Positions 809-49,593 of a stretch of DNA of 49,593 nucleotides are shown piece after piece; position 1 is the stretch's first letter; every line of letters starts with the position of its first letter. The notes beneath the pieces are model-generated. The model saw nothing but the letters and a program-made list of their open reading frames with translations. It searched no databases and was not told the DNA's origin. Origin of the DNA: a virus. A program made the translations under genes and the position numbers. Location of the stretch: positions 1-49,593 of IMG/VR virus record IMGVR_UViG_3300032174_000010. One strand, written 5' to 3'.

Positions 809-837
809 GCTATACATCAAACAACAATGCCCGTCAA
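809..837 (-). promoter_or_regulatory. Sigma70-type promoter for the capsid gene
   Basis: On the minus strand there is TTGACG (837-832), a 17-base spacer and TATAGC (814-809). The start point would be near 802, leaving a leader of about 118 bases to GTG 684 or about 250 bases to ATG 549. It lies over the last codons of the FN3 gene upstream. A dedicated promoter for the most abundant virion protein makes sense. Confidence 0.65.
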
Positions 838-1125
838 GGACAAAGGTGATGTAGGCGCTCCCGGCCATACCGCATGGAACTCAGAGCCGTAAGAACTCTC
901 TCCATCAACCGTTACGGCAGAGACAACGTAAAAGTAGTCCACCCCATTCACCAGATTCCCCGGCCCATCCGTGTACGTCGTCACGATGTTTGCCGATGCC
1001 GAAGTCATGCCGGGATTTGGGTTGGACTGGCCGATGATCAGATAAGGCCCACCAGACGAAGTGCCCCGATACACCTTGTAGAACAAGGCATTCGGGACAC
1101 TCGCCCAGTTAAGCGTAACCTGCAT
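817..1125 (-). CDS. Small fibronectin type III domain protein
   Basis: The 102-residue product reads as a single FN3 fold: an early LNWASVPNALFYKVYRG strand pair, then YTDGPGNLVNGVDYFYVVSAV and a closing GESSYGSEFHAVWPG. There is no signal peptide. FN3 modules on phage virions often mediate weak carbohydrate or surface contacts. The gene sits directly before the capsid gene and its ATG overlaps the stop of the 66-residue gene, so it is probably a capsid decoration or other head-associated protein. That role is inferred from position. Confidence 0.7.
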   Translation of the reverse strand: MQVTLNWASVPNALFYKVYRGTSSGGPYLIIGQSNPNPGMTSASANIVTTYTDGPGNLVNGVDYFYVVSAVTVDGESSYGSEFHAVWPGAPTSPLSLTGIVV

Positions 1126-1971: not shown

Positions 1972-2859
1972 TTAGTTGGCGCGTGCCAGCGCCTTGAGTA
2001 CGAGTTCCTTATCTGCTTTCGCATTCGGTTTGCGCTGAGGCAGCAGAGCGCACAATTCAGCGAGACTCCAAACATGGTCAGTTAGCCCCGCTTCCATCGC
2101 GGGAGTCACGCGCAACGATGAATGCACGCGGCAGAAATTGTAGTGCATGAAGTACAGCGCGACCTGATGCCCGTGATTCTCAACTTTCTTGCTGTGCCCG
2201 TTCGTGAGCCGCGTAAAACGCCGCATCCCCATCCGCATCGAAAGGTTCTGCCGCTCAACGAAGCTAGTCGAGATGTACTTCGGGTCAGGCGTGCCGCTCA
2301 ACACTCCAGTGCGGCAACCAATACACGTTGCAGGACTGTAGCGTGATTCGGGATTATCATTTGATGCACCGTAGATTTTCACCAGCATCGCATAATCAAT
2401 CTCAGAACCGAAGGCATTCTCGACGGCCTCAGCATAGACACGGTGCCCATCCGTCGTTAGCTGGATTCGATTGCCGATGCGCGAAGCAACATCCTGCATG
2501 AAAGCTTGCGCTGTACTTGCGCCACGATCCCCAACCATGTAAGAAATAATCAACTTTGAATCGGAATCAATCGCCGTCCACGTCCAGACGCTACCGAAAC
2601 CCGCCTGTACTTGTTCCAGAGTGAGGTTCTTGTCCTTGCCCAACACAAATGCCCAGATTTCGTCACATTGGACGCGGTTCACGCTAAGACCGCGCACCAT
2701 CACATCGTGATACGCAGCACAGGCGCACCCGGCATCTTCAAGCAGTCTTAACACGGTATGTTTCCCCACTCCGAGCATCCTGCACGTCGCGTTAATCGAA
2801 TTGCCCTCTACCAGAGCCGCTATGATCTGGCACCGCTTGGTTGTGCTTAACTGATTCAT
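1972..2859 (-). CDS. IS1-family DDE transposase
   Basis: The 295-residue protein starts MNQLSTTKRCQIIAALVEG with a helix-turn-helix (SINATCRMLGVGKHTVLRLL). The DDE core follows: CDEIWAFV (first Asp), LTTDGHRVY (second Asp) and FVERQNLSMRMG (Glu). The C-terminus has YNFCRVHSSLRVTPAMEAGL, usual for this family. The frame is uninterrupted and needs no frameshift, unlike classical IS1. I chose ATG 2859, not the upstream GTG at 2907, because a consensus promoter occupies 2879-2907. The gene lies in the middle of the transposon, transcribed toward its left end. Confidence 0.92.
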   Translation of the reverse strand: MNQLSTTKRCQIIAALVEGNSINATCRMLGVGKHTVLRLLEDAGCACAAYHDVMVRGLSVNRVQCDEIWAFVLGKDKNLTLEQVQAGFGSVWTWTAIDSDSKLIISYMVGDRGASTAQAFMQDVASRIGNRIQLTTDGHRVYAEAVENAFGSEIDYAMLVKIYGASNDNPESRYSPATCIGCRTGVLSGTPDPKYISTSFVERQNLSMRMGMRRFTRLTNGHSKKVENHGHQVALYFMHYNFCRVHSSLRVTPAMEAGLTDHVWSLAELCALLPQRKPNAKADKELVLKALARAN

Positions 2860-2878
2860 TGCCGTTCCGCCTAGGCAC

Positions 2879-2907
2879 AATATAGGCAGTATAACAGCAA
2901 TTGTCAA
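2879..2907 (-). promoter_or_regulatory. Transposase promoter
   Basis: TTGACA (2907-2902), a 17-base spacer and TATATT (2884-2879) lie on the minus strand, a near-perfect sigma70 promoter. It would start RNA near 2872, just before the transposase ATG at 2859, and also serve the Phd-like gene downstream. Confidence 0.75.
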
Positions 2908-3012: not shown

Positions 3013-4146
3013 GTGATTTTAGCCAACTTCGCCTCACTCCTGCCGACTGATACTTCAGCGTTAGAAAGCTCCATCTCCGCATTAGAAAGCTCCATATCTG
3101 CCCTTGACAGCGCCATCCCAGCCCTAGATAGATCAGTGAAGTCTTGGGAGTATGTCGGTTTTGCTGGCGCTTTGCTGGTTGTCGTTGGCGTATTGCTGGA
3201 GCTACACGACATTTGGCATCGACATGGGGAGGAGATTACAACATGGGCGTTGTCATATTTCGGCGTGTCTCGCTCCGTCGAAAGACCGAAGTTTTTCAAG
3301 AAGTTCGGGGTAGAAGTTGCCAGCGTGATTCTTGTTGCAGGGGGGGTTGGTTGCGAGCTTGGAGCTGGTTTTATGATCGAATCGAAGAATGTCGCGCTTC
3401 GGGCCATCGACATCCAACTGCGAAGTAAGAATGCTGCATTGCGAAGCGCAAGCGAACAATTGCTTGCACTTGTGACGCAACAGGCAGGCGAGGCTAAAGA
3501 TAACGCAGGCATCGCCAAAGAATCTGCAAAGGAGGCTAAGAGGTTAGCACTGGAAGTAAACGGCATTGCATCCGCCGCACGAGACAAGGCTAACGGAGCG
3601 GAAGATGTGGCGCGGAAGGCCGAAACAAAAATAGAGGCGGTTGATAGACGAGCAGTAGAGCTACGAGATGCCGTAGAAGCGCTCGGCCCCCGTAGTCTTA
3701 GCTTAGAGCAGCAACGCGACATCGCTTGGGCCCTAAAGTCGTACAGACTACACCCCACCGTAGTCGAGTCATATGGAATGGATGGCGAAGGAACCGCGCT
3801 GGCTTGGCAGTTAATCGTAGTCCTCCATGCAGCCACTGGGCTTCCCGTGGCAGATTCAAGAGCCAACAAGATCGTGTCGGGAGGGTTTGAGTGGGGAATC
3901 TCAATACGCGGCCCTGAGTCGGAACGTGCGTTTATGGATGCTTTGCAAAATTCATTGACCTTGATTGGCCATCTAAAAAACGTCACCGTAAATGGCCCGG
4001 AACGAAGAGGCTCAGCAATGGTTGGGGGCGCAGCGATGACAGGGGGAGGCGGCCAAGTCCAACCGCCCACAATTCCGGCGAGCGGCCCAGTTCTAGTAAT
4101 GGTTGGGATTAAGCCGCCCGTAATTCCGCCAGCTATCGGCAAGTAG
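3013..4146 (+). CDS. Passenger membrane/coiled-coil protein (377 aa)
   Basis: The product has N-terminal repeats of SALESSI/SALDSAI type (residues 15-40), a first membrane helix (YVGFAGALLVVVGVLLEL, about 47-64) and a second (EVASVILVAGGVGCELGAGF, about 100-120). A long charged Ala-rich coiled coil follows (about 125-220) and then a globular tail containing YGMDGEGTALAWQL and HAATGLPVADSRAN. The C-terminus is Gly/Pro-rich. The start is GTG. I do not recognise a named family; the layout (two membrane helices, coiled coil, sensor-like tail) would fit a membrane-tethered sensor or defence-type accessory protein. The opposite strand is also open but has no protein-like composition. Confidence 0.75.
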   Translation: MILANFASLLPTDTSALESSISALESSISALDSAIPALDRSVKSWEYVGFAGALLVVVGVLLELHDIWHRHGEEITTWALSYFGVSRSVERPKFFKKFGVEVASVILVAGGVGCELGAGFMIESKNVALRAIDIQLRSKNAALRSASEQLLALVTQQAGEAKDNAGIAKESAKEAKRLALEVNGIASAARDKANGAEDVARKAETKIEAVDRRAVELRDAVEALGPRSLSLEQQRDIAWALKSYRLHPTVVESYGMDGEGTALAWQLIVVLHAATGLPVADSRANKIVSGGFEWGISIRGPESERAFMDALQNSLTLIGHLKNVTVNGPERRGSAMVGGAAMTGGGGQVQPPTIPASGPVLVMVGIKPPVIPPAIGK

Positions 4147-4197: not shown

Positions 4198-4213
4198 AAA
4201 CGGCACCAGTACC
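4198..4213 (-). repeat. Transposon right terminal inverted repeat
   Basis: AAACGGCACCAGTACC is the perfect complement of the left end and is followed directly by the second copy of the target octamer. Confidence 0.93.
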
Positions 4214-4221
4214 GGTATTCT
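4214..4221. repeat. Target site duplication, right (GGTATTCT)
   Basis: This is the second copy of the octamer at 1458-1465. The base after it (4222) continues the interrupted HNH reading frame exactly. Confidence 0.9.
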
Positions 4222-4580
4222 GGAATAATGGACGGCTTCATGGTGCTCATCGTGTCTCTTTTGAGCACTGGCGCTTTCCAATACCCGCCGACAAAGAACT
4301 CGATCATCTGTGTCGAGTACCCTCTTGTGTCAACCCAGAGCATCTAGAACCAGTATCCCACGCCGAGAACGTCGGCAGAAGTCGAAAATCCAACAAAACC
4401 CATTGTAAGCACGGCCACAGTTTAGATGACTGCTATCTCCAATTCAGGCCCCATGTAAAAACTGGCCGCAAGGTTAGCCGTAAGTGTCGCACCTGCATGT
4501 TGCAGCACGCCCACAACCAGCGTGAGCGTATTAAACTTTCGAGACTCGCGCAAGGTAATTCTGTAGTCCAAGCGTCTTAA
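4222..4580 (+). pseudogene. HNH homing endonuclease, 3' fragment (transposon-interrupted)
   Basis: Read in frame with 1363-1465, this part gives [18 protein letters not shown], then [14 protein letters not shown] with the catalytic [18 protein letters not shown] with the Asn/His positions of the fold, and a tail zinc ribbon (THCKHGH and CRTC). These are the ordered landmarks of phage HNH endonucleases. No stop or frameshift occurs before TAA 4578-4580, so the gene was probably functional until insertion. Its last 50 bases overlap the 3' end of the ferritin-like gene on the other strand. Confidence 0.9.
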
Positions 4581-5001
4581 TCAGATTTTGTTGCTTCTCT
4601 AATTCCGCGACATGAACCTCATCGTCTTTTACACAGTGCTCTATCATGCGACGGAGCGAGTCTTCTCCTGCCGTTCTCGCTGCCGAGAGAAACGTATTTA
4701 GGGAATCGACGCAGTGCTTCTCGTTTTCAAGGTCATTGGCAATCTGTGTCGGCACGTCCGTGCCTACATCGGCATCATCCTTCTGATTCATGTTCGGGAT
4801 CATGTCTCTCTGGGCCATGTAGTGCATCGTGGCCTTCATATGATCCCGCTCTTCGTCCAGAATCTTCTTGGTCAGTTTCGCCAGTTTGTGATAGCCCCAG
4901 CGTTTTTGCAGGACGTGATGCGCCTGAAACTGGGCAATATAACCCTGTTTCACCTTGAGCATATCTTGCAAGCCTTTTTCTAGGCCGGAGTTGAGTTTCA
5001 C
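4531..5001 (-). CDS. Bacterioferritin-like protein
   Basis: The 156-residue length and four-helix layout match bacterioferritin. The C-terminus ([21 protein letters not shown]) closely follows the family's C-terminal signature. By eye, the E. coli Bfr numbering carries over directly: Glu51, His54, Glu94 and His130 are kept. The ferroxidase ligand Glu18 is Lys, Glu127 is Asp, and the haem ligand Met52 is Arg. It may therefore bind iron poorly or serve structurally. Its ATG overlaps the scaffold stop, so it belongs to the head operon, an unexpected place for an iron-storage fold. Confidence 0.8.
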
Positions 5002-5708
5002 TTGCGACTCAATTCCTGCTGAATGGCAGCATTGCGAAGATCATTCAAGGGCATCTTGTAAACATCGGGATTGCCAGCCATTGTTTCCGGGTTGTTGCTG
5101 CGCAGCATTGGAGGCGGAGCCTGTCTATTCGCCGCCGACATGTTATTCGCCCATGTTGAGTTGATCTGCTCGGCAGTCAGGGGCGCATAGCCCTTGGTCG
5201 CATCCGTAGAGTGTTCCCTAACCAAAAGGGCATGTGCCGCTGTCATGGACTGCGGGGTGAAGTCCCATTTCATTTCGTCAATCTTCTTGCTGAGTGCGTC
5301 GATGGCTTCCGGGGTGTTCGGGAAGTCCTGATTCAGGTTCATGAACTCCGTGGCGACCAATTGATTGTTGACCTTCTCAGTCGTGCCCTTCACCCGTTGG
5401 AGATCGGCCTTGAACTCATCGCCGCTGTTATAGCCGAAGCCCTTGGCAACCTGCGTAACGAGGTAGTTCTGGAGTTGGGCTTCATTCGGGTCGGCAGCGG
5501 GATTAGGGTTGGGATTATTGGGTGGAGCGGCTTGTTGGGCCTTCAGGGTTTCGACTTCGGCCTTGAACCCCTGTCCCCACTTTTTCGTGTTTACTTGTGC
5601 TTCGGCAAGTTTGGTTGTTACTTCCAGCGGATCGCCGCTGAACTTTTCTCCCGTCTCCAGTTCGACATTGTAATTTCCATCAGGCAACTTCTCGATCTTG
5701 TTGGGCAT
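4998..5708 (-). CDS. Putative capsid scaffold protein
   Basis: The 236-residue product is acidic and mostly helical, with a Pro/Asn-rich hinge (about residues 60-75) and a basic C-terminal end ([16 protein letters not shown]). This composition, and its place between portal and capsid genes, is typical of scaffolds. The start MPNKIEKLPDGNYNVELETG resembles the N-terminus of phage scaffolds of this head type. It overlaps the ferritin-like gene by four bases. No protease motif is seen. Confidence 0.65.
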   Translation of the reverse strand: MPNKIEKLPDGNYNVELETGEKFSGDPLEVTTKLAEAQVNTKKWGQGFKAEVETLKAQQAAPPNNPNPNPAADPNEAQLQNYLVTQVAKGFGYNSGDEFKADLQRVKGTTEKVNNQLVATEFMNLNQDFPNTPEAIDALSKKIDEMKWDFTPQSMTAAHALLVREHSTDATKGYAPLTAEQINSTWANNMSAANRQAPPPMLRSNNPETMAGNPDVYKMPLNDLRNAAIQQELSRK

Positions 5709-6018
5709 ACTCCTCCGTAGGAACGCTACGTTGTGCTGACATCTGTACTAACAGTTTTTTCTCATCTAAGCAAGCGTTTACATATTTCTCCACTCCGCGA
5801 AGCATGGAAACTCTCTGCTGCCATCGGGTCTGGAGTCCAGCCTTAATCTCCGCCGCCGCATAGCCAGCGCCAATCATGTCCTCTTGCGCTTCATCCACCC
5901 ATGTCCTCATCTGCTTGAGGATGCGGTGCCAGCCTGCCGTGTTTGCCGTGTTGCAGACTTCCCTGATTTCAGAGAGATGGTCGAGTTCTTCTGTGGTTAG
6001 AACTTCATTGTCCGCCAC
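5680..6018 (-). CDS. Hypothetical head-module protein (112 aa)
   Basis: This helical, acidic protein (TTEELDHLSEIREVCNTANT, then WVDEAQEDMIGAGYAAAEI) starts with a GTG behind a clear GGAGG. It overlaps the portal stop by 14 bases and the scaffold start by 29 bases, so it is translationally coupled to both. I do not recognise a family; a small assembly factor is the likeliest role from position. Confidence 0.6.
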   Translation of the reverse strand: MADNEVLTTEELDHLSEIREVCNTANTAGWHRILKQMRTWVDEAQEDMIGAGYAAAEIKAGLQTRWQQRVSMLRGVEKYVNACLDEKKLLVQMSAQRSVPTEEYAQQDREVA

Positions 6019-8182
6019 TAGAACCTCCAGGAGCCGGAGGAGGAATATCGCTTGGCAAGGTCAGCCCCGCGCCAGCATATTCATTCAGGAGCTTATGAGC
6101 TACATCGGGCGTCATAATTCGATCAATCAGGCTCTTGATGAGCGTGGTTTCGTCCTTCTCGTCTGCAACCTGTTTGTGGCTGTCGAGTCTGGCCTGCTGC
6201 TCCTGCATCTTTTGCATGAAGGGGATCATCTTCAACTGCATAATCTCCTGCTGTTCTTGAGGCTGCATCTGCCTAAATAGAGCCATTGGAGCCAATCCAA
6301 ACGTATCATTGATGAGCCTTTGCACCTGCGAGAAATCAATGGTCATGCCTTGCTGGAAGGCAATCTGATCCAGTTCGGGATTCAGAATCGTCTGCAACAG
6401 AAGCCCGATGCCGCCTTGAGCCAATGCCTGCTTGATCTTCATTTTTGAGGAAGCGTTCATCCTAAACCTGACCGAGGCATTCATAATGTCTACAGGGTCA
6501 ATTTGCACAAACTGGGCTTCTGGGCCAAGAACCTGCTGCATCTCATCGGGCGGTAGAAATATCTGATTCAGCGAGTGAATGATGTTTAACGCAGGGACAA
6601 GGAACTGGTCTTCGGCGTTCTCGACGTGGTATTGGATTCGCTTCCCAGAAGCGCCTTCCTGAGACGAGACGCCTGTTGCTGTCCGATTCGCTGAATTCCC
6701 CCCAGAGGAAGGGGTGCCAAGGACAGCAAGATCAGTGACTCCGGTTTTCTTTTGCACTCGTCTTTCAAGGGCATCGACTTCGATGTAGGCGTCTTGGGTG
6801 ACGGGCTTATTGTCCATCCATTTGACATCGTTTTGGGGGTCTTCGACTTTCCAGACCACTCCGGGGCGGATTCGCTGTTGAGATGCACTGAAAGCCCTTC
6901 CTTCCTTCACCACCAAGGGGCGGTGAATCATCAGGTTTAATTCATCAATCCGGGCGTTAATAATCGCTTCTGCTAACTTCTGGTCGCCTTCCACGAGATC
7001 GCAAATCGACAGGCCGGCAAAGCGCCCCGGAACGTCTACATAGAATGCATCAAGAAACGGAAGGATGCCATACTGATTCTGCTGATTGTAGGTAACCCAT
7101 TGCCTTCCCAGCATCCAAACATGCCGATTAGCCTGCCAGTAACGAATGACTTCCACTCTCGCCAAGGCCGGGTCGTTTGAGTAGTCAATCGACGGCTGGT
7201 AGGTCATGCCACGGAAGGACTCCTGATTCTGTTTTGAGGAGTCGCCTTGCGTCATGCTCTTGATCTGGGCTAATTGCAGGAGTTGTCTGGCGTCGGGAAT
7301 ATTGAATCCATCCGTGCCTTGATACTCCAAAAGCTGATTCACCGTAAGAAGGTGTCTCGTAGCGCAGAATGAGCCGTCGTTAATATTGTGCGAATTGCAG
7401 TTCGGATCCCAATAGAAGTCTCGCAAGTCGATGTTCGTTAACATCGGCCTGACGACGTGCTGGGTCTGCATGAACTTCTGCACGATGGAGCGCATTTGCC
7501 CGGTGGGGACTGCAACAGGTTCTCCGGTGAGAGGATGGGCTACGGTTTGCCGTACAGGTACGTTAGTCCTTGTGAAATGGTTGCGCACGATATTGCGGTC
7601 GAGGACTCCAAATTCCACAATACCGTTGCCGTAGATGTAAGATTGCTTATAGGCACGGCGGGCGATTTCCCGGAGAGTAAGGTAGCGTCCGGGTTCTCCG
7701 AGGTCTTGCAGTTGCCATGAGATGAGGTCGCGGACTGCTGAGGCTTGGGCGGGTAGGGTTCCGGGTTCTGGTTCGACATCGAATGGCAGACGATTGTTGT
7801 CCGGGAAAAGAGAAAGTACGACGCTAGGCAAAAGAGCTTCAATCTGTTCCAGAGCAAGAAATATCCCAACTGAGGACCGAGGTATTTTAGTGCCTTCCCA
7901 CGTTTTGCGCTGCGTCCAAGCAAGATAAAGTTGATCTGAAATGCGGAAACGCCAGTCATGGTTGATGGTTCGGTAGCCTTCGGCCTTCTTGAAGTCGGCC
8001 ATTGCAACTTTGGCAGCATAGGAATCACTCCATGTTTCTGTGGGTAATTTGGGCTGTTCGCGCTCTTCAAGCGTCATCGCCTGAATCCCCGGCCCTCCGG
8101 GAATGTTCGTAGGCGCATTGGTGGCCGGAGTCGCGGCCATCGAAGCGTTTGTCAGACTGCCCTGAGCATCATTGTCCGGCAT
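6005..8182 (-). CDS. Portal protein
   Basis: The 725-residue length suits podoviral portals. Recognisable parts are an N-terminal Pro/Ala/Thr-rich arm, a wing segment with NIDLRDFYWDPNCNS, a VEVIRYWQ strand, a FAGLSICDLVEGDQKLAEAI helix typical of the portal stem/crown, and a Gln/Met-rich C-terminal helix (around QPQEQQEIMQLKMIPFMQKM) like a barrel. It forms the dodecameric DNA channel at the head vertex and lies just downstream of TerL as usual. Confidence 0.85.
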   Translation of the reverse strand: MPDNDAQGSLTNASMAATPATNAPTNIPGGPGIQAMTLEEREQPKLPTETWSDSYAAKVAMADFKKAEGYRTINHDWRFRISDQLYLAWTQRKTWEGTKIPRSSVGIFLALEQIEALLPSVVLSLFPDNNRLPFDVEPEPGTLPAQASAVRDLISWQLQDLGEPGRYLTLREIARRAYKQSYIYGNGIVEFGVLDRNIVRNHFTRTNVPVRQTVAHPLTGEPVAVPTGQMRSIVQKFMQTQHVVRPMLTNIDLRDFYWDPNCNSHNINDGSFCATRHLLTVNQLLEYQGTDGFNIPDARQLLQLAQIKSMTQGDSSKQNQESFRGMTYQPSIDYSNDPALARVEVIRYWQANRHVWMLGRQWVTYNQQNQYGILPFLDAFYVDVPGRFAGLSICDLVEGDQKLAEAIINARIDELNLMIHRPLVVKEGRAFSASQQRIRPGVVWKVEDPQNDVKWMDNKPVTQDAYIEVDALERRVQKKTGVTDLAVLGTPSSGGNSANRTATGVSSQEGASGKRIQYHVENAEDQFLVPALNIIHSLNQIFLPPDEMQQVLGPEAQFVQIDPVDIMNASVRFRMNASSKMKIKQALAQGGIGLLLQTILNPELDQIAFQQGMTIDFSQVQRLINDTFGLAPMALFRQMQPQEQQEIMQLKMIPFMQKMQEQQARLDSHKQVADEKDETTLIKSLIDRIMTPDVAHKLLNEYAGAGLTLPSDIPPPAPGGSSGGQ

Positions 8183-8319: not shown

Positions 8320-10077
8320 TCACCAACCCGTAATCAAGTCTACAGCATTCGTATTTTCCGGCTCTTTCACGCCCCAAAGGCGATCCATCAAATCTTTGAG
8401 GTCTGGGTTGATGGGCCTGCCTTGGGGATTCGCCATCGTCTTTTCCATCGGCTGCACATCCGATACGACTCCGCCCTCGCGGTTCTGCATGGCATCGGCA
8501 ATCGTATCGAGGATGTCATCATGGGCATATTTGGGGAAGCGCATGATCTCGTTGATGATCGCTAGTTTGTGGGGCTGGTTGTCGGCAAATTTGATTGAGC
8601 CGTTGCGGAACCACGGCTGAAGTCCTTTGATGCGCTGCTGCTTTGAGGTTCGATTATCACGGCGAATCTCCACCACCGGAAGCCACTTGCTACGTTTTGC
8701 CATTTCCCGTTTAAGAAACGGGAGTAGGACACGAGCGTGAGCCTCTTTTTCGACTTTGACATCCATGACGCGAGGATGTATGGCAACCAACTTGAAAAGC
8801 AGGTCGATAACTTCAAATGGCGTATACCTTCCTCGCAAGACTGAAAGAATGAATAGCGTTCCATCATGTCCAAATCCATGCAGGTTGATGACGGTGTAAT
8901 CGTTATCCGCCAGTTTATTTGTGGATGGCTCCATCCCCGCCAAGTCCACAGTAATGTGCAATGAGAGGTAGGCATATAGCTCCTTAATCGCCTTCGGAGG
9001 CACCCAGACAATCTCATCCATCGACTCCACAAGCCCCGCCTTGTCTGGGATCGGATTCATCAAATACTGCGAACTCAGCACCGACCAGCCCTGCAAAGGG
9101 TCTTCCGCAATCGCCAAAAGCCCTTCCGCAGGCAATCGGGCAGGCCACAGGACTTTACAGTGCTTGTACAGCATGTGCGGCTCTTTAATCCCGCAGTCTG
9201 CCTTGCACAAGTCTTTCGTTAATTCCCCTTCAAGGACTGCCGATTGCTTATAGATGAAGTAGGTCTTCGTTTCTTTCTTGTCTTCTTCGTCTTGGACGGT
9301 GGCATAGGCATCTGAAAAATCGTATGTTGTGCCCACGAGATACCACCACCCTCTTTGGTATCCAATAGGGCGAGTATCGCTGTTAGGCGCAGTTTCGAGA
9401 AGAGGCCATAGCATTCCGAGATGCTGTTTAACTGTGAGGATTTGTTCTGGGGTTCTGACATTTTCTTTGTCCACTACATCGTCGTTGTCGATTACATCAT
9501 AGTGTGTTGACGCGACGACTGCACCAACACTAACCGTTCCGACCGTAGGTTCTTTGGCGTTCGGCCTTCTACAATTAGGAACTGTAAATTGATCTTGATT
9601 ACCGAAGTCTTTACTAGTTTTCGCAGGTGGGCAAAATTCCGGATACAGGAATCGAAACATGTCATTGTACTGGAAGTGCCCTTTAATCTCTTTGAGGAAG
9701 CCATGCACCTGATCTCCCGTTCCCGAAGATAGCAGAATCCTGATATTTGGGTAGTTCAGAATCCATTGAATCATATGGGCCATCATCACCGTGCTCTTGA
9801 GATGGCCTCTCGGCATCAAAATGAGGGTCTTTCTCAATCCATGCGGAGTTTCCAAATCCCAGAAGTTTGGGACTTCCGGTTCATAGCCTTCGACTAGTTC
9901 CTTAAAAGTACCCGGTGACAGCTTGTCACCAACATGTCGAGTGTTCGTCCAATCTCTTCCACCTTTGAACTTCTGGAGGCATCTAATCAGCGGCCCGTGA
10001 ACCTCTTTGGAAACGTCCTTGTAGCCTAAAACGTTGTTCGAGAGATAAAGTAGCGAAGTTCTCCCATACTGCCGCAT
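8320..10077 (-). CDS. terL: Terminase large subunit
   Basis: The 585-residue protein has the ATPase Walker A variant LILMPRGHLKST (about 85-96), Walker B with YDVIDNDD (about 193-200), a WYLVGTTYD coupling region (about 245-253), and a RNase H-like nuclease with Asp378 in ITVDLAGM, an acidic KVEKEAH (about 441-447) and HDDILDTIADAM (519-530). It cuts and pumps DNA through the portal. The frame stays open upstream of ATG 10077 with protein-like residues (NLPPNFTVEEWRK) but without a standard start codon, so a longer N-terminus from an unusual codon is possible. Confidence 0.93.
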   Translation of the reverse strand: MRQYGRTSLLYLSNNVLGYKDVSKEVHGPLIRCLQKFKGGRDWTNTRHVGDKLSPGTFKELVEGYEPEVPNFWDLETPHGLRKTLILMPRGHLKSTVMMAHMIQWILNYPNIRILLSSGTGDQVHGFLKEIKGHFQYNDMFRFLYPEFCPPAKTSKDFGNQDQFTVPNCRRPNAKEPTVGTVSVGAVVASTHYDVIDNDDVVDKENVRTPEQILTVKQHLGMLWPLLETAPNSDTRPIGYQRGWWYLVGTTYDFSDAYATVQDEEDKKETKTYFIYKQSAVLEGELTKDLCKADCGIKEPHMLYKHCKVLWPARLPAEGLLAIAEDPLQGWSVLSSQYLMNPIPDKAGLVESMDEIVWVPPKAIKELYAYLSLHITVDLAGMEPSTNKLADNDYTVINLHGFGHDGTLFILSVLRGRYTPFEVIDLLFKLVAIHPRVMDVKVEKEAHARVLLPFLKREMAKRSKWLPVVEIRRDNRTSKQQRIKGLQPWFRNGSIKFADNQPHKLAIINEIMRFPKYAHDDILDTIADAMQNREGGVVSDVQPMEKTMANPQGRPINPDLKDLMDRLWGVKEPENTNAVDLITGW

Positions 10078-12445: not shown

Positions 12446-13021
12446 CTACTCCTTGAAGGGGTTTTTCATCCCCGGAATCGGTTCGGCATTCCCCGGCTCC
12501 ATCTCGGAAGTCACTGTCAGTTCATCCCTTAACCAAGGATGAGAGCCTAGTGTGGCCACAGGTTGATGATACCCATAAGCATTCATCAGGTCAGCATGGG
12601 AGTTGATGCAGTCTACCGCCTGCCTGACCAGTTTCTTCGGGTCTCCTTCCTTGTCCGAGGAGAACTGCTTGGAAGGCACGGAGTCAGGCACCATATTGTC
12701 GCCGGAATAATATCTTCCCAAGGTCATCGAAGGGTTGACCTGACCATACTCTCCGCCACGGCTCCCACCATGAGAAGTGTAGTCTTCCGCTGGGCCTGTG
12801 GCAGGAATGGCTGTGAATACCCTTTGAGGATACAAATCCGGTGAGCTTGGTTCGGAACCTGCCTGCGAATCATAAACCAGAGGATAACTGCCTGCCGAAG
12901 GCGCTGGAAGTCCTCCGCCGATCTGCGGCTCAATCCCTCCGCTCATCTCGCGGTCGGTCTGCTTATAGGTTTCATCCTGCTGGCCGAATCTGACATCGGT
13001 GAATTCATTCCCCGTGGGCAT
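12446..13021 (-). CDS. Hypothetical protein (191 aa)
   Basis: The first two thirds are disordered and Gly/Pro/Ser-rich with several Tyr-containing motifs (GRYYSGDNMVPDSV). A short ordered block (KKLVRQAVDCINSHADLMNA) follows, and the end is MKNPFKE. Length, disorder and location between fibre genes and a string of small genes suggest a virion-associated or packaging accessory protein. No family was recognised. Confidence 0.55.
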   Translation of the reverse strand: MPTGNEFTDVRFGQQDETYKQTDREMSGGIEPQIGGGLPAPSAGSYPLVYDSQAGSEPSSPDLYPQRVFTAIPATGPAEDYTSHGGSRGGEYGQVNPSMTLGRYYSGDNMVPDSVPSKQFSSDKEGDPKKLVRQAVDCINSHADLMNAYGYHQPVATLGSHPWLRDELTVTSEMEPGNAEPIPGMKNPFKE

Positions 13022-13166
13022 TATTGAACTCCTCGCAGGTCATAGTTTTTCCTTCAACTTTGACCCAATGGTTACCTCTTTTATCATCGGTAGGTAGCAT
13101 CGTTCCATCCTTGAACCCCCACCATTCCGTATAGAAGTTGGCATATTGCCCAATGGTGACTTCCAC
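13005..13166 (-). CDS. Hypothetical protein (53 aa)
   Basis: A GTG at 13166 follows the stop of the preceding gene by one base, behind GGGGAAAC. The product (IGQYANFYTEWWGFKDGTM, then RGNHWVKVEGKTMTCEEF) is aromatic-rich and overlaps the next gene by 17 bases. Longer frames upstream would lie inside the neighbouring gene. Function unknown. Confidence 0.5.
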   Translation of the reverse strand: MEVTIGQYANFYTEWWGFKDGTMLPTDDKRGNHWVKVEGKTMTCEEFNNAHGE

Positions 13167-13167
13167 C

Positions 13168-13395
13168 CTAGTTTCCCCACTTCTGCCCAGTCTGACGGGC
13201 TCGCTTGGCTCTCGAAATCGCCGCACTCAAGGCTCCGGGATTCTTCACCCCCGCCCCAAATGGCTTCCTCTTCTTTAGTATCTGCGGAATCGGACTTGTT
13301 CCGCTCGGAACATTCACAGGAGGCGTAGAGGTTGTATCGTCAGAAGACGGCTCATTGAAGGATGACCCGAGGGCTGGAATCGAGGGGCTGCTCAC
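13168..13395 (-). CDS. Small basic protein (75 aa)
   Basis: The N-terminal half is Ser/Pro/Thr-rich. The C-terminal half (KKRKPFGAGVKNPGALSAAI, then SRAKRARQTGQKWGN) is strongly basic and could bind nucleic acid. Its GTG start overlaps the preceding TGA (GTGA), showing translational coupling. No named family. Confidence 0.6.
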   Translation of the reverse strand: MSSPSIPALGSSFNEPSSDDTTSTPPVNVPSGTSPIPQILKKRKPFGAGVKNPGALSAAISRAKRARQTGQKWGN

Positions 13396-13562
13396 TCTTC
13401 ATCCTCATAATCGTATTCACAGACTATGCGAGGACGGGCAAGCAACTCTTGATAGGCTTCTTCGCCCATCAAATCCCGGAAGGCATAAGGGTGGATGTAT
13501 CCGCCCCTAAACTGAACGGAGCCGCCCACGGTCAAATGAACGTCTTCAGCTAGTATGCTCAT
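13392..13562 (-). CDS. Hypothetical acidic protein (56 aa)
   Basis: The product begins MSILAEDVHLTVGGSVQFRG and ends in an acidic tail EYDYEDEE. Its ATG overlaps the stop of the DUF6496-like gene (ATGA) and its own stop overlaps the next GTG. The coupling on both sides and the protein-like composition support a real gene despite its size. Confidence 0.6.
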   Translation of the reverse strand: MSILAEDVHLTVGGSVQFRGGYIHPYAFRDLMGEEAYQELLARPRIVCEYDYEDEE

Positions 13563-13705
13563 TTGGCTTTCCTTGCCTCAGACAATGCAATCGCAATGGC
13601 CTGTTTATGGGAAGTCACCACCGGGCCTTTCTTCGATCCGGAATGAAGCTGGCGCTGTTTCCATTCGTGCATGACCTTGGCCACTTTGGACGGATTCCTG
13701 TCCAC
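13559..13705 (-). CDS. DUF6496-like small protein (48 aa)
   Basis: The product contains KVMHEWKQRQLHSGSKKGP followed by KQAIAIALSEARKAK, which I recognise as the DUF6496 pattern found in many small bacterial and phage proteins. It starts at GTG 13705; no clear ribosome site is seen. Function of the family is unknown. Confidence 0.7.
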   Translation of the reverse strand: MDRNPSKVAKVMHEWKQRQLHSGSKKGPVVTSHKQAIAIALSEARKAK

Positions 13706-13740
13706 AAAGGCGTTATATCACGAAAGACCCGAGTTGCAAG

Positions 13741-13830
13741 CTAAAATCCAAACCACCACGACACGACCAGCACCATTGCCATGCAACCACAGGCCCCGGC
13801 CAGAATAAAACAGGTGTCTCTAGAGGTCAT
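13741..13830 (-). CDS. Single-pass membrane peptide (29 aa)
   Basis: The ATG overlaps the TGA of the preceding zinc-ribbon frame (ATGA). The peptide has a short charged start (MTSRD) and a hydrophobic span with CFILAGACGCMAMVLVVSWW. Such coupled mini membrane proteins occur in phages as lysis or inhibition peptides, but nothing specific can be assigned. Confidence 0.45.
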   Translation of the reverse strand: MTSRDTCFILAGACGCMAMVLVVSWWFGF

Positions 13831-14294
13831 CTGCCATATCTCCTTTCCCGCATCGCTCGTAAGGCATCTGATGGACTCATGCCGATAAAGTCCGCCGCTC
13901 CGCCGCTTTCGCGTTTTCCTTCCCCTTTTCGATCTTTTGGTGTGCTCCCACCCACTGCCCCGCTGTCGGCGCGTGAGTTGCCATGTGTTCCGAGTGGCCG
14001 AAGATGTCCTCCTTCTCGAACTCCGCCCCGCAATCCGGGCACACCCGATTCTTGGGGTAATCCTCCGGTCTCATTTCCAGAAATCGCTGTCTTTTCAATT
14101 CGTACTCGGTCATCGGTTCCTTTGCCAGAATCCTTTTCGACGCCTCGCGCTGTTGCTCCTTGCTCATTGCCATTGTTCCACCCTCGCTTTCTGCATTTTC
14201 GATTCGGACACTGCTCCCGCTTCTCGCCCTCCCGTGGTATCCATTCCCACCCGCACCATCGGCACTTCAGTACCGCCCTATACACCGTTGGCAT
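13827..14294 (-). CDS. Zinc-ribbon protein, long frame overlapping another gene
   Basis: The first 40 residues are convincing: MPTVYRAVLKCRWCGWEWIP and CPNRKCRKRGW form a C-x2-C...C-x4-C zinc ribbon. After about residue 45 the frame becomes Gly/Lys/Glu/Arg-rich because it overlaps the 98-residue gene at 13877-14173 in another frame. The end (SPSDALRAMRERRYGR) again looks protein-like. I chose ATG 14294 because a promoter with its -10 box six bases upstream suggests a leaderless start; a start at 14327 would lie inside that promoter. Confidence 0.5.
   Translation of the reverse strand: MPTVYRAVLKCRWCGWEWIPREGEKREQCPNRKCRKRGWNNGNEQGATARGVEKDSGKGTDDRVRIEKTAISGNETGGLPQESGVPGLRGGVREGGHLRPLGTHGNSRADSGAVGGSTPKDRKGEGKRESGGAADFIGMSPSDALRAMRERRYGR
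13877..14173 (-). CDS. C2H2-type zinc-finger protein (98 aa)
   Basis: The product has a basic helical N-terminus (KEQQREASKRILAKEPMTEY) and a single finger CPDCGAEF...HSEHMATH with the C-x2-C...H-x3-H geometry, followed by a basic tail (KGKENAKAAERR). It probably binds DNA or RNA. It lies entirely within the longer zinc-ribbon frame but has the better amino-acid composition of the two over that stretch. Confidence 0.65.
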   Translation of the reverse strand: MAMSKEQQREASKRILAKEPMTEYELKRQRFLEMRPEDYPKNRVCPDCGAEFEKEDIFGHSEHMATHAPTAGQWVGAHQKIEKGKENAKAAERRTLSA

Positions 14295-49079: not shown

Positions 49080-49593
49080 TTAAACAAGTGACGCATCTGC
49101 TGTGATAATTTTGAATCTTAAATTCGTGGTGTCGAGCGTTTTCGCCGCGAACACAAACCGATAACTGACATAGCTGGCAATCTCGCCAACCGGATCAGCA
49201 GGGGATGGCCCGCCCTTGACCATATTCAAAGTGAATCTCTGCTTCCGGGGATCAACCACCTGATCTGGGCCTTTGCCAGTCAGGTTGATGATTCCGATTC
49301 CACCCGAACCCATGATGTAGGTCGAGTACAGAACGTTCGGAGCGGTTCCTGAAGTGCCGACATTGGTCGATGTCAGCAGGCGGCACATGCCAATTTCCCC
49401 GACCTCCCCCTGAAGCACCTGACGGCCTGCCATGTATTTCAAGGCGTCAATGAAGCCTCCGGCAGTGTTGTCGGAAATCAGGTCATAGACGACGTAGGGG
49501 TGAATGACAGAGAAGAAGTAGTTGTCGAACCTTGGGCGTACATTAATGCCCAAAAGCAACGCGACATTGGACTTAAAGTCTGCCGCCGAGAGA
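49080..49593 (-). CDS. Major capsid protein, N4-gp56 family (C-terminal part)
   Basis: This is the 3' part of the capsid gene that begins at 684 (or 549) and crosses the circle junction. The segment HPYVVYDLISDNTAGGFIDA, followed by GEVGEIGMCRLLTSTNV, is the C-terminal signature of the N4-gp56 capsid family (Y-D-L region, then E-I-G-x-x-R-x-x-x-T-x-N). The end (RFKIITADASLV) is intact. Bases 49467-49593 duplicate 1-127. Confidence 0.9.
   Translation of the reverse strand, partial: LSAADFKSNVALLLGINVRPRFDNYFFSVIHPYVVYDLISDNTAGGFIDALKYMAGRQVLQGEVGEIGMCRLLTSTNVGTSGTAPNVLYSTYIMGSGGIGIINLTGKGPDQVVDPRKQRFTLNMVKGGPSPADPVGEIASYVSYRFVFAAKTLDTTNLRFKIITADASLV
49467..49593. repeat. Terminal direct repeat, right copy
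   Basis: These 127 bases are identical to 1-127; see the left copy. The true genome length is therefore about 49,466 bases. Confidence 0.95.

Follow-up and report, generated by a model that had tools for sequence, protein, structure and literature searches.

A bacterioferritin-fold protein with altered ferroxidase and haem ligands, encoded in the head operon of a clade of related phages

In E. coli bacterioferritin (Bfr), Glu18 and His54 are described as holding the first iron of the ferroxidase centre, Glu94 and His130 the second, and Glu51 and Glu127 as bridging ligands, while an inner-surface site consists of His46 and Asp50, and Tyr25, Tyr58 and Trp133 are reported to be required for mineralisation (PMC4691338). 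Subunits of this superfamily that have lost such a centre are on record. Bfr2 of M. gryphiswaldense, a haem-binding subunit with the Bfr fold, is described as lacking Glu18 and other ferroxidase residues (PMC6529640), and in the animal L-ferritin chain a Lys62-Glu107 salt bridge is reported in place of the iron site (PMC11396501). As published, the virus-borne members of the superfamily are iron or oxidative-stress proteins: the bacterioferritin gene of a Bathyarchaeia virus is reported as a likely functional auxiliary metabolic gene (PMC10904782), and Dps-like proteins are described from phages (PMC8008677, PMC6669764), the gene in Lactobacillus phages lying near DNA metabolism and replication genes (PMC6669764/PMC8008677). 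In the open-access literature searched, we found no report of a phage head operon that encodes a bacterioferritin with a dead ferroxidase centre.

The locus considered here lies in the virus record IMGVR_UViG_3300032174_000010, the whole of which (49,593 bases) we refer to as the window. Its minus strand carries, in order, the genes for the terminase large subunit, the portal, a 112-aa protein, a 236-aa protein, a ferritin-like protein, a 102-aa protein and the major capsid protein. The module resembles that of Escherichia phage SU10, with the same order of terminase, portal, small protein, scaffold and capsid genes and the same type of portal, except that nothing separates scaffold and capsid in SU10. 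The relevant features are as follows.

8320..10077, minus strand: terminase large subunit (phrog_38, 3.6e-55)
6005..8182, minus strand: portal protein of the SU10 type (PF23899)
5680..6018, minus strand: small conserved head-module protein, 112 aa, in the same place as SU10_07
4998..5708, minus strand: putative capsid scaffolding protein, 236 aa (SU10 synteny and homologues in five related contigs)
4531..5001, minus strand: bacterioferritin-fold protein, 156 aa, GTG start, with altered ferroxidase and haem ligands (profile, fold and ligand alignment)
3013..4146, plus strand: putative coiled-coil ORF, 377 aa, sharing an insert with the transposase below
1972..2907, minus strand: IS1-family transposase, between the ferritin and capsid genes
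817..1125, minus strand: 102-aa protein, fibronectin/Ig-like by eye, found beside the capsid gene in L003, L005, L007 and L012
1..684, minus strand: major capsid protein, N-terminal part, start approximate (phrog_1357, 3.8e-12)
49080..49592, minus strand: major capsid protein, C-terminal part, which carries on from 684-1 over the junction of the record ends (127 bp in common; unbroken in contig L016)

The two ends of the record (1-127 and 49467-49593) are identical over 127 bp and fall inside the capsid gene. Because both ends match a contig from the same sample, L016, at 100% identity, and this contig bridges them through the major capsid gene, the genome looks closed or circularly permuted, though the record is classed as linear. 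The 236-aa protein gave no match in family profile searches (Pfam, PHROGs) and is named a scaffold because of its synteny with SU10 and its alignable homologues in the relatives; the 102-aa protein likewise gave no match in a Pfam search. At 4531-5001 the plus strand is interrupted by stops, and the ORF proposed there by an earlier, sequence-only reading of this DNA proves to be a real one on the minus strand. No iron-related family came up among the 20 other window ORFs that were scanned.

The window protein is a member of the ferritin superfamily with the bacterioferritin fold. The profile search that the sequence-only reading had named as able to overturn this assignment upheld it, with PF00210 (Pfam Ferritin) at an E-value of 3.2e-18 and 66.4 bits, well above the cut-off of 24.5. 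The bacterioferritin equivalog TIGR00754 (NCBI) also matches, at 4.5e-18, but its 65.7 bits lie under the cut-off of 125.55. Both encapsulin cargo ferritin profiles fall well short (NF058679, EncB, 16.5 bits against 90; TIGR04535, 9.8 against 125), and PHROGs has no family for the protein at an E-value of 0.1. An AlphaFold model built from a seven-row alignment (pLDDT 93, pTM 0.85) shows the four-helix bundle of the superfamily. Its best solved match in Foldseek is 9h1u_M, from a mixed bacterioferritin (TM 0.97, rmsd 0.9), and VIA-align superposes all 156 of 156 residues on P. aeruginosa BfrB (Z 25.6, rmsd 0.9); the best 50 solved matches listed by each structural search are bacterioferritins or bacterial FtnA/Ftn. 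The fit of the numbering to Bfr, judged earlier by eye, is borne out by an almost gap-free alignment with Salmonella Bfr, and the C-terminal signature is present as GLQNYL. Against E. coli Bfr and P. aeruginosa BfrB/FtnA, the five-helix fold is retained over 156 residues at about 15-29% identity in the alignments compared, with H28, W35, G36, P69, G80, E94, H130, G145, N148 and Y149 kept.

Dps proteins form 12-mers with the ferroxidase centre between subunits and are not known to carry a C-terminal fifth helix on the bundle. The predicted model has such a helix, at 146-153, and does not fit the Dps type. The Dps/ferritin-like proteins of other phages (PMC8008677, PMC6669764, and matches in the viral structure library BFVD) belong to the same superfamily but to the Dps or Mn-catalase families, and the structural match to them is weaker. 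The two best BFVD rows reach a query-based TM of 0.83 and 0.88; the latter row is from a non-phage virus. Ferritin-like folds also occur within long proteins of uncultured tailed phages annotated as 'prohead protease' (A0A6J7XDU5, A0A6J7WIS1 and A0A6J7WPK9), possibly another link of such folds to head assembly.

The same gene occupies the same place in four related phages, all known from metagenomes: L007, L005, L003 and the pair L006/L012, the last two being counted as one phage on the strength of an identical 81-aa overlap and a common sample. The relatives were found via a portal search and by alignment. No close relatives came from searching viral contigs with the single ferritin protein, none from a search of genome contigs, and a search of viral contigs with the Bfr C-terminal pattern, which would miss a distant viral Bfr, returned four contigs, all already known. 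PF00210 matches, every one above the cut-off, are present in 5 of 12 relative records. Short pieces around the terminase or portal gene (L002, L004, L104 and L105) were set aside in scoring presence and absence, and L106 and L107, with a portal identity of 19%, were covered by the PF00210 search only. Five matches came from a phage collection. Of its two Acinetobacter and two Salmonella records, the one of each pair that was opened is a bacterial chromosome contig with an ordinary bfr; these two, CAKLQH020000007 (L021) and AFYI01000003 (L022), are labelled as phage or filed in that collection, and have the gene orders smc-zipA-ligA-bfr and tuf-bfd-bfr-rpsJ. The fifth such match, MT835709, is an unannotated, unverified fragment labelled 'Bacteriophage sp.', with 22.5% identity.

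Throughout, we give the phage residues in the order window, L007, L012, L005, L003, the five sequences known. Position 18, a glutamate in Bfr, is K,K,K,K,Q, and position 127, by which we mean the residue three before His130, is D,D,N,D,N, with Glu in none of the five. H54, E94 and H130 are each kept in all five, and position 51 is E,E,E,E,V, such that E51 is lost only in L003. The intra-subunit di-iron ligand set of TIGR00754 is therefore incomplete in every member. Met52, the haem ligand, is replaced by R in 5/5; the inner-surface position 46 is K,N,G,G,K rather than His; and the aromatic trio is gone, position 25 reading F,F,M,M,M, position 58 T in all five, and position 133 E,K,D,D,D. The Lys18, Asp127 and Arg52 that the sequence-only reading had picked out in the window, along with the C-terminal signature, are thus as claimed, and the alterations are common to the relatives. 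With Lys or Gln in place of E18, and a shorter or uncharged residue in place of E127, these proteins are very unlikely to form a di-iron centre, although a one-metal site built from E51, E94 and H130 is possible in four of the five. With ligands replaced and the fold kept, the proteins have the character of a ferroxidase-less, L-chain-like subunit. L003, the sole member without Lys18, is also the one without E51 and has Asn127; the joint absence of Lys18 and E51 fits a pairing of the two, yet amounts to one evolutionary event.

To place these changes, we drew on two sets of bacterial sequences. The first consists of the best 80 of 417 bacterial matches and leans to Proteobacteria. Within it, E18 is present in 79/79 readable proteins, E51, H54, E94 and H130 in 79/80 each, Tyr25 in 80/80 and Trp133 in 74/80, and the residue three before His130 is Glu in 73/80 and Thr in 7/80. 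Two positions are less telling in these best 80 of 417: Tyr58 is found in 0/80, making position 58 a poor marker, and Met52 in 11/80, its scarcity reflecting that the best matches are mostly haem-free subunits. The existence of such haem-free subunits in bacteria also means that loss of Met52 alone does not exclude Bfr. The second set adds 40 loci, taken from 4 genomes that had been located and from samples of 100 Actinomycetota and 97 Bdellovibrionota genomes, and comprises the matches above the TIGR00754 cut-off; matches under that cut-off and second copies without a given locus were left out. Here His54 is less constant (His 27/40, Asp 10/40). Together the 120 loci give 109 distinct proteins, position 18 being readable in 107, with no Acidobacterial Bfr in the sample. 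E18 is kept in 105 of the 107; the other two have Gln18, are without several other ligands and keep Met52, so that loss of E18 is not unique by itself. Loss of both E18 and Met52, however, is seen in 0 of the 109 distinct proteins (107 readable at position 18) against 5/5 phages. Bacteria in this sample make ferroxidase-less and haem-less subunits, but never both in one protein. A bacterial parallel, Bfr2, is alike in having lost E18 and other ferroxidase residues but is described as a haem-binding subunit (PMC6529640), whereas the phage proteins keep neither centre.

The surface has changed as well. Net charges of the phage proteins are 0, +2, +3, -1 and +4 (pI 6.8-9.3), compared with -19 to -7 (pI 4.45-5.38) for the best 80 of 417 bacterial proteins and -21 to -5 (pI 4.24-5.28) for the 40 further loci. 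The shift is mostly on helices A and B and is not a genome-wide trend, as other proteins of the same phage have both signs; the scaffold-position and small head proteins are at net -6 each. In the tree, the phage proteins group as a single clade with full support (100/100), set apart by a very long branch. They have in common 32 residues that each occur in fewer than 8 of the best 80 of 417 bacterial proteins, and many of these residues lie near the former haem pocket, on helices A and B (Q26, K45, R52, D53, K56, H60, Q64). The gene is free of stop codons in all five phages. As dS is saturated in most pairs, we compared the proportions of altered nonsynonymous (pN) and synonymous (pS) sites: pN is 0.14-0.31 against a pS of 0.69-0.93 in all 10 pairs, and purifying selection on the phage ferritin gene is clear.

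In the five phages that have it, the ferritin gene always lies between the scaffold-position and capsid genes, and the place within the head operon proposed earlier for the window is therefore a feature of the clade. So too, in part, is the coupling to the scaffold-position gene that was claimed with it. In the window, the GTG start runs into the stop codon of the preceding gene (GTGA), and the corresponding overlap is ATGA in L005, L007 and L006. In L006 and L003 a small ORF separates scaffold from ferritin and is the one directly upstream; that of L003 is 62 aa long and shares 11 bases with the ferritin gene. This overlapping arrangement suggests late production in ratio with the head proteins. 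The stretch around the gene is more variable. SU10 (KM044272) has no gene between scaffold and capsid. A distant relative, L103 (portal identity 41%, 43,886 bases), has homologues of the terminase, portal, small-protein and scaffold genes, followed by two unrelated genes (201 and 205 aa) and the capsid gene, and PF00210 has no match in its whole 43.9-kb record. Among the ferritin-bearing phages the neighbours differ. Upstream of the gene stand the 62-aa ORF of L003 and one of 68 aa in L006, whereas L005 has a 103-aa ORF downstream of it. The window carries an insert made up of the IS1-family transposase and the plus-strand coiled-coil ORF, neither of which has a match in the related loci. With SU10 empty, other genes in L103 and differing neighbours within the clade, the scaffold-capsid stretch is an accessory slot, of which ferritin is the constant occupant in this clade only.

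Several further observations concern the mobile elements at these loci. The closest plasmid relatives of the window transposase, with 51-57% identity, come from Hoeflea, Mesorhizobium, Acidiphilium and Methylocapsa. The insert is flanked, at 1461-1481 and 4198-4218, by an inverted repeat of 21 nt (90%) whose left arm lies inside an HNH-endonuclease-like fragment (ORF 1345-1635, by eye); what stands there, on opposite strands, may be left over from a homing endonuclease gene. In L103, the capsid gene is apparently interrupted by a LAGLIDADG-like ORF at 12820-13374 (by eye, an intron or intein-type insertion), the C-terminal part of the capsid following just after it at 13428-14171. A guess by eye that the two slot genes of L103 encode glycosyltransferases was dropped, Pfam and PHROGs giving no confirmation.

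From its sequence, the phage protein has probably been put to a new use. The explanation we favour, and hold about as strongly as we doubt it, is that it is a former bacterioferritin subunit, now non-catalytic, haem-less and L-chain-like, which is made with the head proteins and acts by binding rather than by iron chemistry. Lys18 would fill the space of the first iron, held by the acidic old-site residues E51 and E94, the same device as the Lys62-Glu107 pair of L-ferritin; the two have in common a lysine at the metal site in a predicted non-catalytic subunit (PMC11396501), although the animal chain belongs to another ferritin branch and the phage salt bridge is deduced from the alignment. The positions assigned to the haem pocket at the two-fold interface are now polar and charged (Q26, K45, D49, R52, D53, K56, H60), and dimers should therefore form without haem. 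Translational coupling to the scaffold-position gene would place synthesis late. The formerly acidic surface is now neutral to basic, and the protein, as an oligomer, would bind a polyanion or an acidic partner, such as packaged DNA, the scaffold, the small head proteins or host bacterioferritin, instead of storing iron. It would then be an accessory of this phage clade, with SU10-like phages in general not needing it for their heads. A more specific version, in which a ferritin cage without iron chemistry and with a neutral-to-basic charge is a dedicated head part or assembly aid, in or on the virion or condensing or protecting packaged DNA, we put forward only tentatively.

Two other readings carry some weight. 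The protein may be a dominant-negative or regulatory subunit that enters mixed cages with the acidic host Bfr, lowers their ferroxidase activity or haem content and so frees iron or changes redox state for the phage. We regard this as somewhat unlikely, although a host-iron modifier had been proposed before and a modifier of host bacterioferritin is possible. Mixed 24-mers with one subunit lacking a ferroxidase centre are described for M. gryphiswaldense Bfr2 (PMC6529640), mixed cages with haem-free dimers are on record in bacteria (PMC12120770), and chains from mixed cages (9h1u, 9iig) are among the best solved matches of the window protein. A net charge opposite to that of bacterial Bfr would favour mixing, and the residues kept include E128, N148 and Y149 at the C-terminus, and a basic one at 33. 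Set against these points, the two-fold interface is remodelled, positions 45, 56 and 60 being changed in 5/5 phages; all three are on the five-residue list given as critical for E. coli Bfr oligomerisation (PMC6529640), of which the remaining two are kept or similar. Late co-expression with head genes would also be odd timing for a modifier of host iron. The other reading, a virion component in which the ferritin fold serves purely as an oligomer, whether it decorates the head, lies inside it or helps to assemble it, we consider unlikely. In its favour are the constant place between scaffold-position and capsid genes in five phages, the start/stop overlap with the upstream gene, the purifying selection and the contrast of a neutral-to-basic protein with acidic scaffold-position and small head proteins. 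The same type of head module nevertheless does without ferritin in SU10 and L103, and identity to the window copy is 60-71% for the full-length ferritin copies, as opposed to 91-96% for the C-terminal part of the capsid protein. The structural shell component of the sequence-only reading is accordingly improbable as an essential part in the wider phage group and possible as a virion component specific to this clade.

The remaining readings are harder to reconcile with the data. An auxiliary metabolic gene for a working iron-storage or detoxification protein, its site unusual or binding a single metal, would be in keeping with the half or more of the ligand set that is kept, with the virus-encoded Bfr judged functional (PMC10904782) and with the Dps-like proteins of other phages (PMC8008677, PMC6669764). 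Yet E18, E127, His46 and the Tyr25/Tyr58/Trp133 trio are missing in 5/5 phages, and E51 in one, and E18Q is among three substitutions reported to jointly inactivate a bacterial Bfr centre (PMC6529640). We consider it very improbable, and with the haem ligand also gone, the iron scavenger suggested earlier becomes unlikely. The lost ligands and the changing slot neighbours could also be those of a decaying passenger gene taken from a host, but the intact reading frames and a pN far below pS already contradict this, as do the novel residues that are invariant across the five phages and seldom or never found in bacteria, and we give it almost no credence.

Viral ferritin genes are usually taken as helpers in iron metabolism or oxidative stress from annotation alone. 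Here annotation would mislead: iron site, haem site and acidic surface have all been lost, yet selection on the gene is strong and it is linked to the scaffold-position gene. The ligands of such genes should be checked before they are named iron-metabolism genes. The clade offers a testable case of a virus either reusing a cage protein for another purpose or making a poison subunit for the cage of its host.
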